This document shows, piece by piece, positions 57,045 to 62,198 of a stretch of 64,000 nt of DNA (within the stretch, counting starts at the first letter, position 1; each line of letters starts with the position of its first letter). Origin of the DNA: Longimicrobiaceae bacterium (lineage in GTDB: Bacteria > Gemmatimonadota > Gemmatimonadetes > Longimicrobiales > Longimicrobiaceae). Below the pieces are notes generated by a model. That model was not told where the DNA came from. It did not search any database and was given only the letters and a program-made list of their open reading frames with translations. The position numbers and the translations under genes were made by a program. The stretch is from assembly GCA_036375715.1 (NCBI GenBank), contig DASVBS010000065.1, forward strand, positions 186,001 to 250,000. The letters run 5' to 3'.

Positions 57045-58988
57045 ATGCGCGTCGCGACCCTGCTTCTCCTGTGGCTCACCCTCAGCGTTCCGGCGTCCGC
57101 CCAGCAGGAGGAGGCGAACCTGCACTGGAACGAGCTGTCGGTGCAGGCGCACCTGGACGCTGAAGGCCGGCTCCACCTGCGCGAAGTCCAGGCAATCGAA
57201 TTCGACGGCGCGTGGAACGGGGGGCAGCGTCGCTTCGACATCCGCCGTGGGCAGAAGCTCGTTCTCGACGGCATCACCCGTGTGGACCGGGCGAGCGGAG
57301 AGCGGTTCGAGCTGGTGGAAGTGGATGATGAGCCGGCGGAGATCGACCAGTTCGAATGGAGCGACAAAGAAATCGTGCGGTGGCGGAGTCGGCTGGAGAC
57401 CGATCCGCCTTTCGACAACCAGGAACTCGTCTACGAGCTCCGCTACGTCCTCTGGCCGGTGTTGATGCGGGCCGAGGACGGTGGCTACCGCCTGGCCCAC
57501 GACTTCGCGTTTCCTGACCGCAATGGCGTGATCGAGCGATTCCAGGTCGACCTCACCCTGGATCCGGCGTGGGAGAGTCCGTTCGGATCGCACATCCGGG
57601 AGACCGCGTCGGACCTTCCTCCGGACCGCGGCTACAGCCTGGTGGTGCCGCTCCGGAACACGGCAGCGGACGCACCGCTGGCGGCGCCACCACCGGCGCC
57701 GGCATGGACGCGAACCGCGGTCATCGCCGGCGCCTTGCTCATACCCCTTCTGGTGCTGTTGGCGCTGCTTCGCCGAGGCCGCGATCTCGCGCGAGCCGCA
57801 CCGCTGACCCCTCCCGAGGAGATCGACGCGGAGTGGCTGGAGCGGCACATCTTCGTCCATCCCCCTGAGATCGTGGGCACCGCCTGGGACCGGGCGGTGA
57901 GCGAAGCGGAGGTGGCCGCCCTGCTCGCCCGGCTGGTGGAAGAGGGGAAGCTTTCGAGCCGGGTGGAGCCGGACGAGAAGGGAGAACCGGTGCTGCACCT
58001 CCGCCGAATTGCACCCCTCGACGCCTTCGCGCCGCACGAACGTGACCTGCTGGAGGCTCTGTTCGTCGATGATAGCGAGGAGACGAGCACCACCGCCGTC
58101 CGCGAGCATTACCAGGACAAGGGGTTCGACCCGGCGGCAAAGATCAGGAAAGCGCTGGAAGAGCGCCTGGAGGGGCTCCCGGGACCCGGCAGAGTTCCCA
58201 GACGGGTGCTAGGCGGTGCTGGTTTGTTCCTGGCGGGGATTGCCCTGACCCTGGTGGTGCCCGATCGGCCCGGTCGTTGGCCAGTGGTGGTTGTGTGCCT
58301 CGCCGCGGCGGTGCTCTCCGCCGCATTGGCCACTCTGCTGGCCGGCCAGCTCGCCCGCCGGGTCACACACCGGGGAGGGGTAATGGTGGGGACGGTTCTG
58401 GCGCTCGGGGCGCCGGCCGCCCTGCTGGTCCTGCTCGCGAACGGACCGCTGGCGCGGGAGGAGGTAGCCGCGTTCTACCGTCCGGGGGCCGGACTCCTGC
58501 TTGCTCTCCTCGTCGTACTTGCGGGGGTGGGAATGCTCGCGAGTGCCTTCGCGCAGCCGACCGAAACGGTCGAGCGGCTCGGATTTCGCCGGCGGCTCGT
58601 CTCGGCCCGCAGGTTCTTTCTGGCGGAGCTCGAGCGACCGGAGCCGCGTCTGCGCGACGCGTGGTTCCCGTACCTGCTGGCCTTCGGGTTGGGTGAGCAG
58701 GTGGACCGGTGGGTCCGCGCCTTCGGGAAAGAGGGTGGAAAGGGGACGACGGCTGCCCTCGCAGGGGCGGCGGGCGCGGCTTCCGGGGGTCGCCCGGCTA
58801 GCTCGAGCTCCGGATGGACCGGCGGAGGGCCACAGTTCGGGGGCGGTAGCTTTGCCGGGGGTGGGGCCGGCGGTGGGTGGGGTGTGGCGGCCGCCGGAAT
58901 GGCGGCGGGCGTCTCGGCGCCCGGGTCGACGGGCGGAGGGGGGACGGGGGTCTCCGTCTCCGGCGGAGGTGGGGGTGGAGGTTGGTGA
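57045..58988 (+). CDS. DUF2207 membrane protein with glycine-rich tail
   Basis: 647 residues from the ATG at 57045 (GGAG 5 nt upstream). Signal peptide ending ASAQ, then the extracytoplasmic DUF2207 domain (about 25-215; LHLREVQAIEFDGAWNGGQRRF, WPVLMRAEDGGYRLAHDFAF), one helix (about 224-245), a cytoplasmic helical part, more hydrophobic segments (about 385-515) and a Gly/Ser-rich tail ending GGGGGGGW. This layout is common for DUF2207 proteins, whose role is unknown. Its last codons lie in a 25-bp perfect inverted repeat. Confidence 0.88.
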   Translation: MRVATLLLLWLTLSVPASAQQEEANLHWNELSVQAHLDAEGRLHLREVQAIEFDGAWNGGQRRFDIRRGQKLVLDGITRVDRASGERFELVEVDDEPAEIDQFEWSDKEIVRWRSRLETDPPFDNQELVYELRYVLWPVLMRAEDGGYRLAHDFAFPDRNGVIERFQVDLTLDPAWESPFGSHIRETASDLPPDRGYSLVVPLRNTAADAPLAAPPPAPAWTRTAVIAGALLIPLLVLLALLRRGRDLARAAPLTPPEEIDAEWLERHIFVHPPEIVGTAWDRAVSEAEVAALLARLVEEGKLSSRVEPDEKGEPVLHLRRIAPLDAFAPHERDLLEALFVDDSEETSTTAVREHYQDKGFDPAAKIRKALEERLEGLPGPGRVPRRVLGGAGLFLAGIALTLVVPDRPGRWPVVVVCLAAAVLSAALATLLAGQLARRVTHRGGVMVGTVLALGAPAALLVLLANGPLAREEVAAFYRPGAGLLLALLVVLAGVGMLASAFAQPTETVERLGFRRRLVSARRFFLAELERPEPRLRDAWFPYLLAFGLGEQVDRWVRAFGKEGGKGTTAALAGAAGAASGGRPASSSSGWTGGGPQFGGGSFAGGGAGGGWGVAAAGMAAGVSAPGSTGGGGTGVSVSGGGGGGGW

Positions 58989-59023
58989 GGATGGGCATCT
59001 CCGCCGGAGACGGAGACCCCCGT
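58944..59023. repeat. 25-bp perfect inverted repeat over the DUF2207 stop codon
   Basis: 58944-58968 and 58999-59023 are exact reverse complements separated by 30 nt, and the stop codon (58986-58988) is in the loop. A very stable hairpin at the mRNA 3' end; there is no T-run, so it may act as an RNase barrier or factor-dependent terminator. It also separates this gene from the riboswitch downstream. Confidence 0.85.
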
Positions 59024-59107: not shown

Positions 59108-59194
59108 ATGCTGCTCAGAGCAAACCCGTCGAAAGGCGGGGACGCAGAGCTACGGGGCTACCGCGGCATCAGCCGTCACGCTCGCCGGGCCGCC
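59108..59194 (+). promoter_or_regulatory. cyclic di-GMP-I (GEMM-I) riboswitch aptamer
   Basis: The conserved GEMM-I strings occur in order and spacing: GCAAACC, then CGAAAG in a short hairpin loop, GGGACGCAGAGC, ACGGGGCTACCG and a closing GCCGGGCCGCC. These form the P2 and P3 helices with the GAAA tetraloop and the c-di-GMP pocket. The 3' strand of the closing helix (from 59188) is also the first strand of the terminator at 59188-59230, the usual expression platform. No coding frame competes for the region. Confidence 0.88.
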
Positions 59195-59230
59195 AGCAAC
59201 GGATGCCATCCGTGCTGGCGGCCTTTTTTT
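59188..59230 (+). terminator. riboswitch-controlled intrinsic terminator
   Basis: GGCCGCCAGC pairs with GCTGGCGGCC and ACGGAT with ATCCGT around a GCC loop, followed by seven T residues (59224-59230). It ends 24 nt before the lipoprotein start and shares its first strand with the aptamer, so ligand binding should change termination. Confidence 0.92.
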
Positions 59231-59254
59231 CCACCAGTACGAGGAGTGTGGAAG

Positions 59255-59914
59255 ATGCAACGTCTCGTCTCGGTCGGAGCTGCCATACTGCTGACCGCTG
59301 GGCTCACCAGCGCGTGCGCTACCAAGGGGCAGCTACGCCGCCTCCAGGCGGAGCAGCAGGCGGCGCTTCAGCAGGAGCGGGAAGAGCGGCTCGCCGCTGA
59401 AGAGGAGTTGCGGGCGACGCTCAATGCCCTCGACAGCGATGTCGAGGCGCTACGAGCAGACATCGAGCAGCTTCGCACTGAGTTCGGTGCCCAGATCACC
59501 GCGCTCGAGGGGAAGCTCCGGTTCGCAATGCCGATCCACTTCGGCTTCGATGAGGCGGAGGTCGCGGCGGAAGACCAGGAGATGCTCAACCGCTTCGCGA
59601 GCGTCGTGCGCGAGCACTACGGGGCCTCGTACCTCACCATCGAAGGCTTCGCCGACCCCGCCGGCCCGGAGGAGTACAACAAGCGGCTCTCCGAGCGCCG
59701 CGCCGAGGCGGTCCAGGAGTATCTCGTACAGCAGGGGCTGCCGGAGGATCGTCTGCGCACCGTGGGCTACGGTGAGTCGCGGCCGGTGGTGCCGGGCGCT
59801 GCCGCCTCGACCCCGGGCGCCGAACTCAACCGCCGCGTGGTCTTCGTGATCGAAGGTCCGGTGAACGACGTGCTGCCGGAGGCTGGGCAGCCCGTCGGCG
59901 CCGAATCGACCTGA
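59255..59914 (+). CDS. OmpA/Pal-family peptidoglycan-binding lipoprotein
   Basis: 219 residues; ATG at 59255 with GAGGAG upstream, after the riboswitch terminator. Lipobox LTSACAT with Cys at about 21. A Gln/Glu/Leu-rich coiled coil (about 25-92; heptad-like EERLAAEEELRATLNALDSDVEAL) leads to the OmpA domain (about 95-200): IHFGFDEAEVA, TIEGFADPAGPEEYNKRLSERRAEAV and VGYGESRP. The NKRLSERRA region binds peptidoglycan. Expression should respond to c-di-GMP, suggesting an envelope or surface-attachment role. A strong terminator follows. Confidence 0.93.
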   Translation: MQRLVSVGAAILLTAGLTSACATKGQLRRLQAEQQAALQQEREERLAAEEELRATLNALDSDVEALRADIEQLRTEFGAQITALEGKLRFAMPIHFGFDEAEVAAEDQEMLNRFASVVREHYGASYLTIEGFADPAGPEEYNKRLSERRAEAVQEYLVQQGLPEDRLRTVGYGESRPVVPGAAASTPGAELNRRVVFVIEGPVNDVLPEAGQPVGAEST

Positions 59915-59945: not shown

Positions 59946-59982
59946 ATCCCCGGGGCGCAATCCGGCGCCCCGGGGATCTTTT
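59946..59982 (+). terminator. intrinsic terminator after the OmpA-family gene
   Basis: A 13-bp perfect stem (59946-59958 with 59965-59977), 6-nt loop, then CTTTT. It lies 32 nt past the stop codon. Confidence 0.92.
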
Positions 59983-60505: not shown

Positions 60506-60515
60506 GGGAGGGAGG

Positions 60516-60746
60516 TTATCCGTTATCCGTTATCCGTTATCCGTTGTCCGTTGTCCGTTGTCCGTTGTCCGTTGTCCGTTGTCCGTTGTCCGTTGCGAGC
60601 GGATAAAACGATAGGGCTTGAATGCCAGGACATCTTGACCGTAGTGCTTCCCGCGCTTGTTGTGCTCTCGGAACGAAAACAGACGGACGGAGTGTCGACG
60701 AAGTCCTGGCACTCAACGGATAACGGATAACGTACAACGGATAACC
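60516..60746. repeat. 7-nt tandem repeat (TTATCCG/TTGTCCG) with inverted distal arm
   Basis: Four TTATCCG units then seven TTGTCCG units run head to tail at 60516-60592. At 60714-60746 the same words return inverted (CAACGGATAACGGATAACG...). Between them a further inverted repeat pairs 60620-60634 with 60700-60714 at 13 of 15 positions. The element fills the gap between two convergent genes, ending 2 nt from the kinase stop. Confidence 0.9.
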
Positions 60747-60748
60747 AC

Positions 60749-61885
60749 TCAGCTTGCACCTGGCTTCGGAATCCGCACATAGAACGTCGTCCCCTTTCCG
60801 GGGGCGCTGTCCACGTCGATCCTCCCACCCAGTTGCTGCACGACCTCCCGGGCGTGTGCCAGGCCGAGCCCCGTGCCGCCCCGCTTTCCGGCGGTGAATC
60901 CGCGCTCGAAGAGCTTCCCCAGGTGCTCCGGCGGAATTCCGCTGCCCGTGTCGCTGACACTGAACACCACCTGTGCGCTGTCCTCCGCGGCCGCCACAGC
61001 GACTTCCCCTCCCTGTTCCGGCAGCGCCTCGACGGCGTTCTTCACCAGATTGGACAGCACGGAGAGGAACTCGCGGCGGTCGACGTGCACCATCCCCTGG
61101 TATCCCCCACGGTGGTCCCGGTAGCGCACCGACTCCTCGCGAAAGTGGCCTGCGGTCAGCTCGCGCAGCTCATCCAGCAGCCGATCGACCCCGACCAGTT
61201 CCCTTGCCTCGAGCGCCTCACCGCGCAGCCTCGCCATCAGCTGCTCGATTTGCGCGAGGCCGTTCTCCGCGGTGTCGTGGATGATGTCGATGAAGCGCAG
61301 GGTGCGCTGTGGATCCCTGCCTTCGGTGGTCATCCAGGTGCGCAGGAGCTGGGCGGCGTTGCGGATGGTCGCCAGCGGGCTGCGCAGGTTGTGCGAGAGT
61401 GTCCCCAGCTCGTGCCCCATCTGGCTCAGTCGGCCGGCCAGCCCCACCTCCGATACCAGCAACACGTTCGTCTGCCGCATTCGCTCGATCCCCGCTTCCG
61501 CAATGGTCGAAGCCATCTCCAGCGGGGCGATGCGACGCAGATAGTCGAACGAATCCTGGTCCAGGAGCCCGAGCCGGGTGGGTTCGGAGGCCGTTGCCCG
61601 CGCCGAGCGCCGATTGGCGTCGTAGAGCGCCAGCTCTCCGAAGAAGTCCCCCGGCTGGATGACCGCCAGCAGCTCCTCGTGTCCGTCGGGGAGCGCCTTG
61701 GTGATCCGGACCGAGCCGCTGGCGACGAGATAGCAATAGTCCGGATCGTCGCCCTCGTCGAAGATGATGTCGCCGGTCTGATAGGAGCGGCGCTTCCGCA
61801 CCAGGCGCTCGATGTCTAGCAGATCGCGTGGAATTCCTCGGAAGAGCCGGTTGCGAACGTACGGGACCTGGCGTGGTCGACTCAT
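60749..61885 (-). CDS. sensor histidine kinase with N-terminal cyclic-nucleotide-binding domain
   Basis: 378 residues from the ATG at 61885; a TTG at 61942 would add 19 residues. No membrane helix, so cytosolic. The Crp-like cNMP domain (about 15-130) has the phosphate cassette GDFFGELALYDANRRSARATA. The kinase core has the H-box LSHNLRSPLATI (His165), N-box SNLVKNAVEAL, G1 DTGSGIPPEHLGKLFERGF and G2 GGTGLGLAHA. It could link cyclic nucleotides to a two-component output. No response regulator is adjacent. Confidence 0.92.
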   Translation of the reverse strand: MSRPRQVPYVRNRLFRGIPRDLLDIERLVRKRRSYQTGDIIFDEGDDPDYCYLVASGSVRITKALPDGHEELLAVIQPGDFFGELALYDANRRSARATASEPTRLGLLDQDSFDYLRRIAPLEMASTIAEAGIERMRQTNVLLVSEVGLAGRLSQMGHELGTLSHNLRSPLATIRNAAQLLRTWMTTEGRDPQRTLRFIDIIHDTAENGLAQIEQLMARLRGEALEARELVGVDRLLDELRELTAGHFREESVRYRDHRGGYQGMVHVDRREFLSVLSNLVKNAVEALPEQGGEVAVAAAEDSAQVVFSVSDTGSGIPPEHLGKLFERGFTAGKRGGTGLGLAHAREVVQQLGGRIDVDSAPGKGTTFYVRIPKPGAS

Positions 61886-62198
61886 TTCGGCTGCGGTGGG
61901 AGGTGTGTGCTCAGGGTGAGGTGCGGGTGCGTTTCGTGTCAATGGCGGAGGATAGCGTACGCTCGCGCATGCGCTGTCAGCCGGCGATCAGGTAGAACCC
62001 GCCGCGCCCCTTCGCGGCCTGCACTCGCGGTACCGCCGCTCTCGTGCACACGAATCCGTAGCGGCGGTGCGGCGCCGGTCCGAGAAACGTTTGCGCGGCT
62101 TCGGGGACACGAGGTACGATGGAGCTGTCCGCGCCCGACGGTGCGGCGATCTTCCGCCTCCCGCCGGTTGGCGCGCACCACCCTCAGCCAGGACGATC
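61886..62198. other. divergent intergenic region, 313 nt
   Basis: Between the histidine kinase gene (minus) and the hydrolase-like gene (plus). No coding frame or clear regulatory element recognised. Confidence 0.5.

Follow-up and report, generated by a model that had tools for sequence, protein, structure and literature searches.

The aptamer, its terminator and the lipoprotein gene

The stretch of DNA analysed here, called the window (64,000 nt), carries on its forward strand a riboswitch aptamer, an intrinsic terminator and the gene of an OmpA-domain lipoprotein in close succession. The first-pass annotation had described a well-conserved GEMM-I aptamer at this place and had proposed an Rfam covariance search as a check, and the cmscan run over all 64,000 nt bore the description out: RF01051 (GEMM-I, c-di-GMP-I) was the sole gathering-level match of the window, located at 59109-59197 (+) and covering model positions 1-87 of 87 with 58.6 bits (E 7e-9), in comparison to a gathering cut-off of 35 bits. 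With P1 included, the aptamer spans 59109-59198 (+), the last P1 partner, A59198, being read from the sequence. The P1 helix, formed by UGCUG at 59109-59113 (+) and its complement CAGCA at 59194-59198 (+), is not among the pairs that the Rfam model covers and was likewise seen in the sequence, while the cmscan alignment placed P2 with its GNRA tetraloop (GAAA) and P3. Among 52 related switches P1 is conserved, with its pairs kept in 43 to 52 of them; position 1-88 covaries, at a level reached by 3 of 10000 shuffles, and position 2-87 shows changes from G-C to A-T. The same alignment makes C59193 (+) the equivalent of Vc2 C92 and pilM C75, and we take it to be the ligand-pairing base. The GEMM-I class riboswitch at this locus is real, and chance origin is excluded because the unit of aptamer plus hairpin recurs nine times in the genome; binding of a 3',3'-cyclic dinucleotide is predicted from membership in the class.

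The terminator hairpin at 59188-59223 (+) has perfect 11-nt arms (59188-59198 and 59213-59223), a fold energy of -31.7 kcal/mol with a z of -7.1 relative to dinucleotide shuffles, and a tract of seven T at 59224-59230 (+). From this tract to the ATG at 59255 there are 24 nt, the same spacing as annotated before. The gene itself (59255-59914, +) encodes 219 aa. A lipobox (Cys21) is followed by a coiled coil and, at residues 96-182, by an OmpA domain, which matched Pfam PF00691 with 73.8 bits (1.4e-20) against a gathering cut-off of 27.2; the lipoprotein was found as described before. The start at 59255 is backed by the Shine-Dalgarno sequence GAGGAG at 59241-59246 (+), 8 nt ahead of the ATG, by the lipobox and by the orthologue alignment. 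The interval annotated for the whole unit, 59108-59914, ends at the gene's end and begins at the ATG of a mechanically called reading frame; this start codon at 59108, an ATG at the aptamer edge, was rejected. A terminator-like hairpin behind the gene (59946-59977, +) suggests a one-gene unit, and no sigma-70-like promoter was recognised upstream.

The first-pass name of an OmpA/Pal-type protein was right as to the OmpA-domain lipoprotein and loose as to Pal, since the protein scored 79.2 bits with the Pal lipoprotein model TIGR02802, whose equivalog cut-off is 125.35; its scores lie under the NCBIfam cut-offs of Pal, YiaD and YfiB alike. Orthologues in the order are 37-52% identical over the full alignment, and Asp134 and Arg149 are invariant in 14 orthologue sequences. 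The 15-residue spacing of this pair is that of diaminopimelate-binding OmpA domains, and the protein presumably anchors the outer membrane to peptidoglycan.

Two other features of the window were observed. At 58944-59023, a 28-nt inverted repeat (96% complementary) spans the end of a DUF2207-like gene whose stop is at about 58988; it has no T tract and is possibly the terminator of that gene or an RNA stabiliser. Heptamer tandem repeats, GTTGTCC x11.6 (60515-60595) and AACGGAT x4.4 (60715-60745), both lie behind the gene of a histidine kinase with a cNMP-binding domain at 60749-61942 (-).

Competition for a shared strand

The aptamer and the terminator have 59188-59198 in common, the 3' strand of the aptamer being the 5' arm of the terminator, which is the arrangement that had been claimed for the locus. 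The terminator arm takes in both the P1 nucleotides and the ligand-pairing nucleotide, the layout by which a transcriptional ON switch is recognised. Inside the terminator C59193 pairs with G59218. The ON switch of Geobacter pilM is built alike, its ligand-pairing base C75 being taken up by the terminator (PMC9262584). Since P1 (59109-59113/59194-59198) cannot coexist with the terminator, an ON switch is the best reading. Folding of the growing RNA showed that P1 is possible when the transcript has reached about 59199-59214, and that the terminator replaces it from 59217 on with P=0.96-1.0. At equilibrium the unliganded RNA folded wholly into the terminator form, as expected for a kinetic ON switch.

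In this mechanism, a ligand binding to the freshly transcribed aptamer would lock P1 together with the ligand-pairing C59193, the 3' strand of the locked aptamer would be unavailable as the 5' arm of the terminator at 59188-59223, and the polymerase would continue into the lipoprotein gene, while without ligand the terminator would form within about 20 nt and transcription would end ahead of the gene. Ligand-driven antitermination is thus probably the direction of control in vivo, and the ON logic of the first-pass annotation is supported by the competition of aptamer and terminator for the same nucleotides. The segment 59230-59254, which holds the Shine-Dalgarno site, can form a small hairpin after the terminator, with a possible added effect on translation.

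Sister switches and the riboswitch-OmpA pairing

The window's genome (87 contigs, 95% complete) gave nine GEMM-I matches, including two tandem pairs (C24, C74). All nine share the arm-sharing layout, four of them with a weak T tract, and most of the genes they precede encode large secreted lipoproteins with Big_2, fn3 or beta-helix domains. The signal would increase envelope anchoring along with several large surface lipoproteins under the sister switches. GEMM-I was present in 20 of the 21 family genomes and in 102 of 200 sampled genomes of the phylum; the assignment to this phylum, Gemmatimonadota, rests on the named closest relatives of the lipoprotein. The 107 family aptamers were sorted by our own sequence rules into type T (n=36), with a terminator and the motif [T/C]GCTGCTCAGAGCAAA...GGCCGCCAGC, type S (n=37), without a terminator and adjacent to the Shine-Dalgarno site, with the start codon mostly 7-17 nt after the aptamer, and a third, shorter type which is mixed. 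At least 8 of the 9 nt at the aptamer 3' end pair downstream in 30 of 36 type T switches, the proportion being 7 of 71 for aptamers outside type T and 5-6% for shuffles.

The pairing of a riboswitch with this OmpA gene is not shared by relatives. No GEMM-I was found, even at E 2, at the 14 orthologue loci, some of which lie on contigs that are short upstream (about 160 nt at L051, 480 nt at L053 and 950 nt at L054), and a conserved pairing was rejected on this count (0 of 14). Of the 107 family aptamers, 1 has this gene downstream of it. The simplest reading is that the link is lineage-specific and that the gene came under switch control in the window's lineage.

Some other arrangements of type T switches were observed. 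A row of three with A at the selectivity position stands ahead of one gene at L264 (G062:C36 1983-2385). Type T switches, in tandem in G004, also stand ahead of a MAEIAIDLGTANTLIHVRG gene (G003:C11 and G004:C607; L112 and L105), which we take to be MreB-like; this suggests that a cell-shape protein is under dinucleotide control in these two genomes.

The selectivity base, the candidate synthases and the ligand

The base at the ligand-selectivity position is A59119 (+), at Rfam model position 11 in the cmscan alignment, which we equate with Vc2 G20 by way of the G21-C46 pair (model 12-37). The window's aptamer thus carries the mark of the GEMM-Ib or cGAMP riboswitches, an A at Vc2 position 20, and so do all nine GEMM-I switches of the genome. 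A second base, G59147 (+) at Vc2 position 48 (model position 39), co-varies with A20. In the family, A20 was found in 35 of 36 type T switches and G20 in 35 of 37 type S switches, the latter with A48 in 35 of 37; when type T switches from other families were added (36 from the family and 16 from the others), the combination A20/G48 was found in 50 of 52 across Gemmatimonadota.

Published work gives weight to this base. The Geobacter A20 riboswitch is cGAMP-selective and the change A20G flips its preference to c-di-GMP (PMC6456294); the Gs1761 A20 aptamer prefers cGAMP about 1200-fold (PMC6456294), and the G/A rule is also valid in a Desulfobacca aptamer (PMC9481103). The base has been described as a selectivity factor and not a hard filter (PMC9262584). 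In tested RNAs A20 favours cGAMP, but context matters (PMC9262584), so the sequence alone does not decide the ligand. Searches of plasmid and viral collections yielded no A20 aptamers that could usefully be set beside those of Geobacter.

We then consider which enzymes might supply the ligand. In Hypr GGDEF domains a Ser or Thr replaces the canonical Asp344/348, 9 residues after a conserved Asn, and such domains make up about 0.17% of GGDEFs (PMC9140294, PMC6456294). The window's genome (G000) has several GGDEF cyclases of the canonical form (Asp at 344/348, GG[D/E]EF); nine aligned domains have the Asp, and a distant tenth has it as judged by eye. For nine family genomes, position 348 was Asp in 78 and Asn in 2 of 80 domains, and 21 further matches had Asp. 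No Hypr Ser348 GGDEF was found in the window's genome or family among about 100 domains from the PF00990 and f4 MASE1-GGDEF searches, so that a Hypr enzyme with Ser or Thr at 348, which is expected alongside GEMM-Ib and does not strictly define it, was rejected for this genome. Among the loci read in families f2 and f3 there was no intact Hypr domain and one degenerate GGAEF domain. No SMODS or DncV-like cyclase was found in G000; in the CD-NTase search, DncV-like matches came from G017 alone, apart from a weak one in G019.

The picture in family f4 is different from that in the window's family. In each of the six genomes chosen for type T switches, a single one of the GGDEF domains read had Ser348; it belongs to a MASE1-GGDEF, and a wider search gave 13 orthologues, 12 from f4 and 1 from f6, all with the Ser and with GGDEF. 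The Ser348 MASE1-GGDEF was present in 9 of 9 f4 genomes that had been selected at the outset for their type T switches, and six f4 genomes without it had no type T (one or two GEMM-I matches were sampled in each). Type T without this cyclase occurs in the f5 genome G069 and in the window's own order. Given partial sampling and related genomes, this is an association and not proof; by sequence, the Ser348 MASE1-GGDEF proteins (L304:1480-2853 -, and L405-L417) are candidates for the cGAMP synthase of Gemmatimonadota. Each of the six f4 genomes chosen for type T switches also has one GGDEF of another variant, in which the Hypr position is Asn (GHEAGN...GGDEF; L305, L298, L310, L303, L312, L321).

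Tandems of mixed type were seen at four sites, L268 (G141:C77 48131 to 47856), L269 (G091:C176 43639 to 43909), L272 (G080:C17 53449 to 53698) and G002:C231 15843 to 15598, in each of which one gene is preceded first by a type T switch with A20/G48 and its terminator and then, no more than about 70-100 nt further on, by a type S switch with G20/A48. Such a mixed tandem is possibly a two-dinucleotide gate.

Taken together, we lean towards the reading that the locus is a transcriptional ON GEMM-I riboswitch with an A20 pocket of GEMM-Ib-like, cGAMP type, whose cognate ligand is more likely to be 3',3'-cGAMP than c-di-GMP; the pocket sequence slightly favours cGAMP. The earlier interpretation is therefore kept for the GEMM-I class, the terminator, the ON logic and the OmpA lipoprotein, while A59119 leaves its c-di-GMP ligand unsecured. 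The strongest competitor is the same ON switch with c-di-GMP as its physiological ligand, in which A20/G48 would bind c-di-GMP adequately and A20 would be only a lineage mark of the terminator type. It is favoured by the several canonical cyclases of the genome and by the search there, which found neither a Hypr nor a DncV-like enzyme; A20 (cGAMP) riboswitches can bind c-di-GMP via a protonated adenine, as PMC9262584 cites from Keller et al. 2018, and affinity for c-di-GMP could be regained through the change at position 48 that accompanies A20. However, the natural A20 aptamers that were tested favour cGAMP (Gs1761, PMC6456294; Desulfobacca, PMC9481103), relatives use G20 aptamers alongside and even A20-then-G20 tandems, which suggests two inputs, and in f4 the A20/G48 switch travels with the Ser348 cyclase. 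We regard c-di-GMP as a serious possibility of the lower probability.

The other two explanations concern the switching itself. The terminator is very stable, the unliganded RNA at equilibrium is all terminator and orthologous genes manage without any switch, all of which would fit a plain constitutive attenuator, or a switch so decayed that the aptamer no longer governs it, but neither P1 nor any other conserved aptamer position is damaged, and the nine copies of the genome, like those of other families, retain the shared strand, which makes such a loss very improbable. An OFF switch, in which the ligand favours termination or masks the ribosome site, has precedent in other GEMM-I riboswitches such as Cd1 (PMC9262584) and in the Shine-Dalgarno-adjacent type of the same family, which may act on translation, but can hardly be credited here, where the two structures of this copy compete for one set of nucleotides, the ligand-pairing C59193 among them, and no further strand that could serve as an antiterminator partner was seen.

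Going back to the ON switch with an A20 pocket, we tentatively propose, with more doubt than confidence, that Gemmatimonadota have a cGAMP branch with dozens of A20/G48 switches for surface proteins, which in some families would be fed by MASE1-type Hypr GGDEF enzymes; in the window's order there would be either a cyclase recognisable neither as Hypr nor as DncV or an A20/G48 pocket turned back to c-di-GMP by position 48. Under such a branch, a gene behind a tandem of A20 and G20 switches would respond to two dinucleotides. Should cGAMP be what the A20 switches sense, its signalling would extend to Gemmatimonadota, with envelope anchoring and surface lipoproteins among its outputs, and the window's order would need a cyclase that has so far escaped recognition; should they sense c-di-GMP, the accepted one-base rule of ligand choice would fall short, and position 48 would be where to seek the remainder. 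GEMM-I matches are routinely labelled "c-di-GMP riboswitch", and the label can conceal the likely ligand, as in this genome.

In comparison to known systems, the lipoprotein is similar to Pal, YiaD and YfiB in having a lipobox and a C-terminal OmpA domain with the Asp134/Arg149 pair, and differs from them in its N-terminal coiled coil and in belonging to an orthologue group of its own in Gemmatimonadota. The aptamer shares with the c-di-GMP-I riboswitches of the Vc2/Cd1 type (RF01051) the covariance model, P2 and P3, the GAAA tetraloop and the junction, while its selectivity base is A and not G. From the Geobacter GEMM-Ib riboswitches (pgcA/GSU1761, pilM) the window's switch is set apart by its phylum, by targets that are surface lipoproteins and an OmpA lipoprotein instead of cytochromes and pili, and by a genome in which no Hypr cyclase was found; it resembles them in the GEMM-I fold, the A at Vc2 position 20, the ON logic, the occurrence of several copies or tandems per genome, the envelope and surface targets, and a terminator in which both P1 and the ligand-pairing C are taken up (PMC6456294, PMC9262584).
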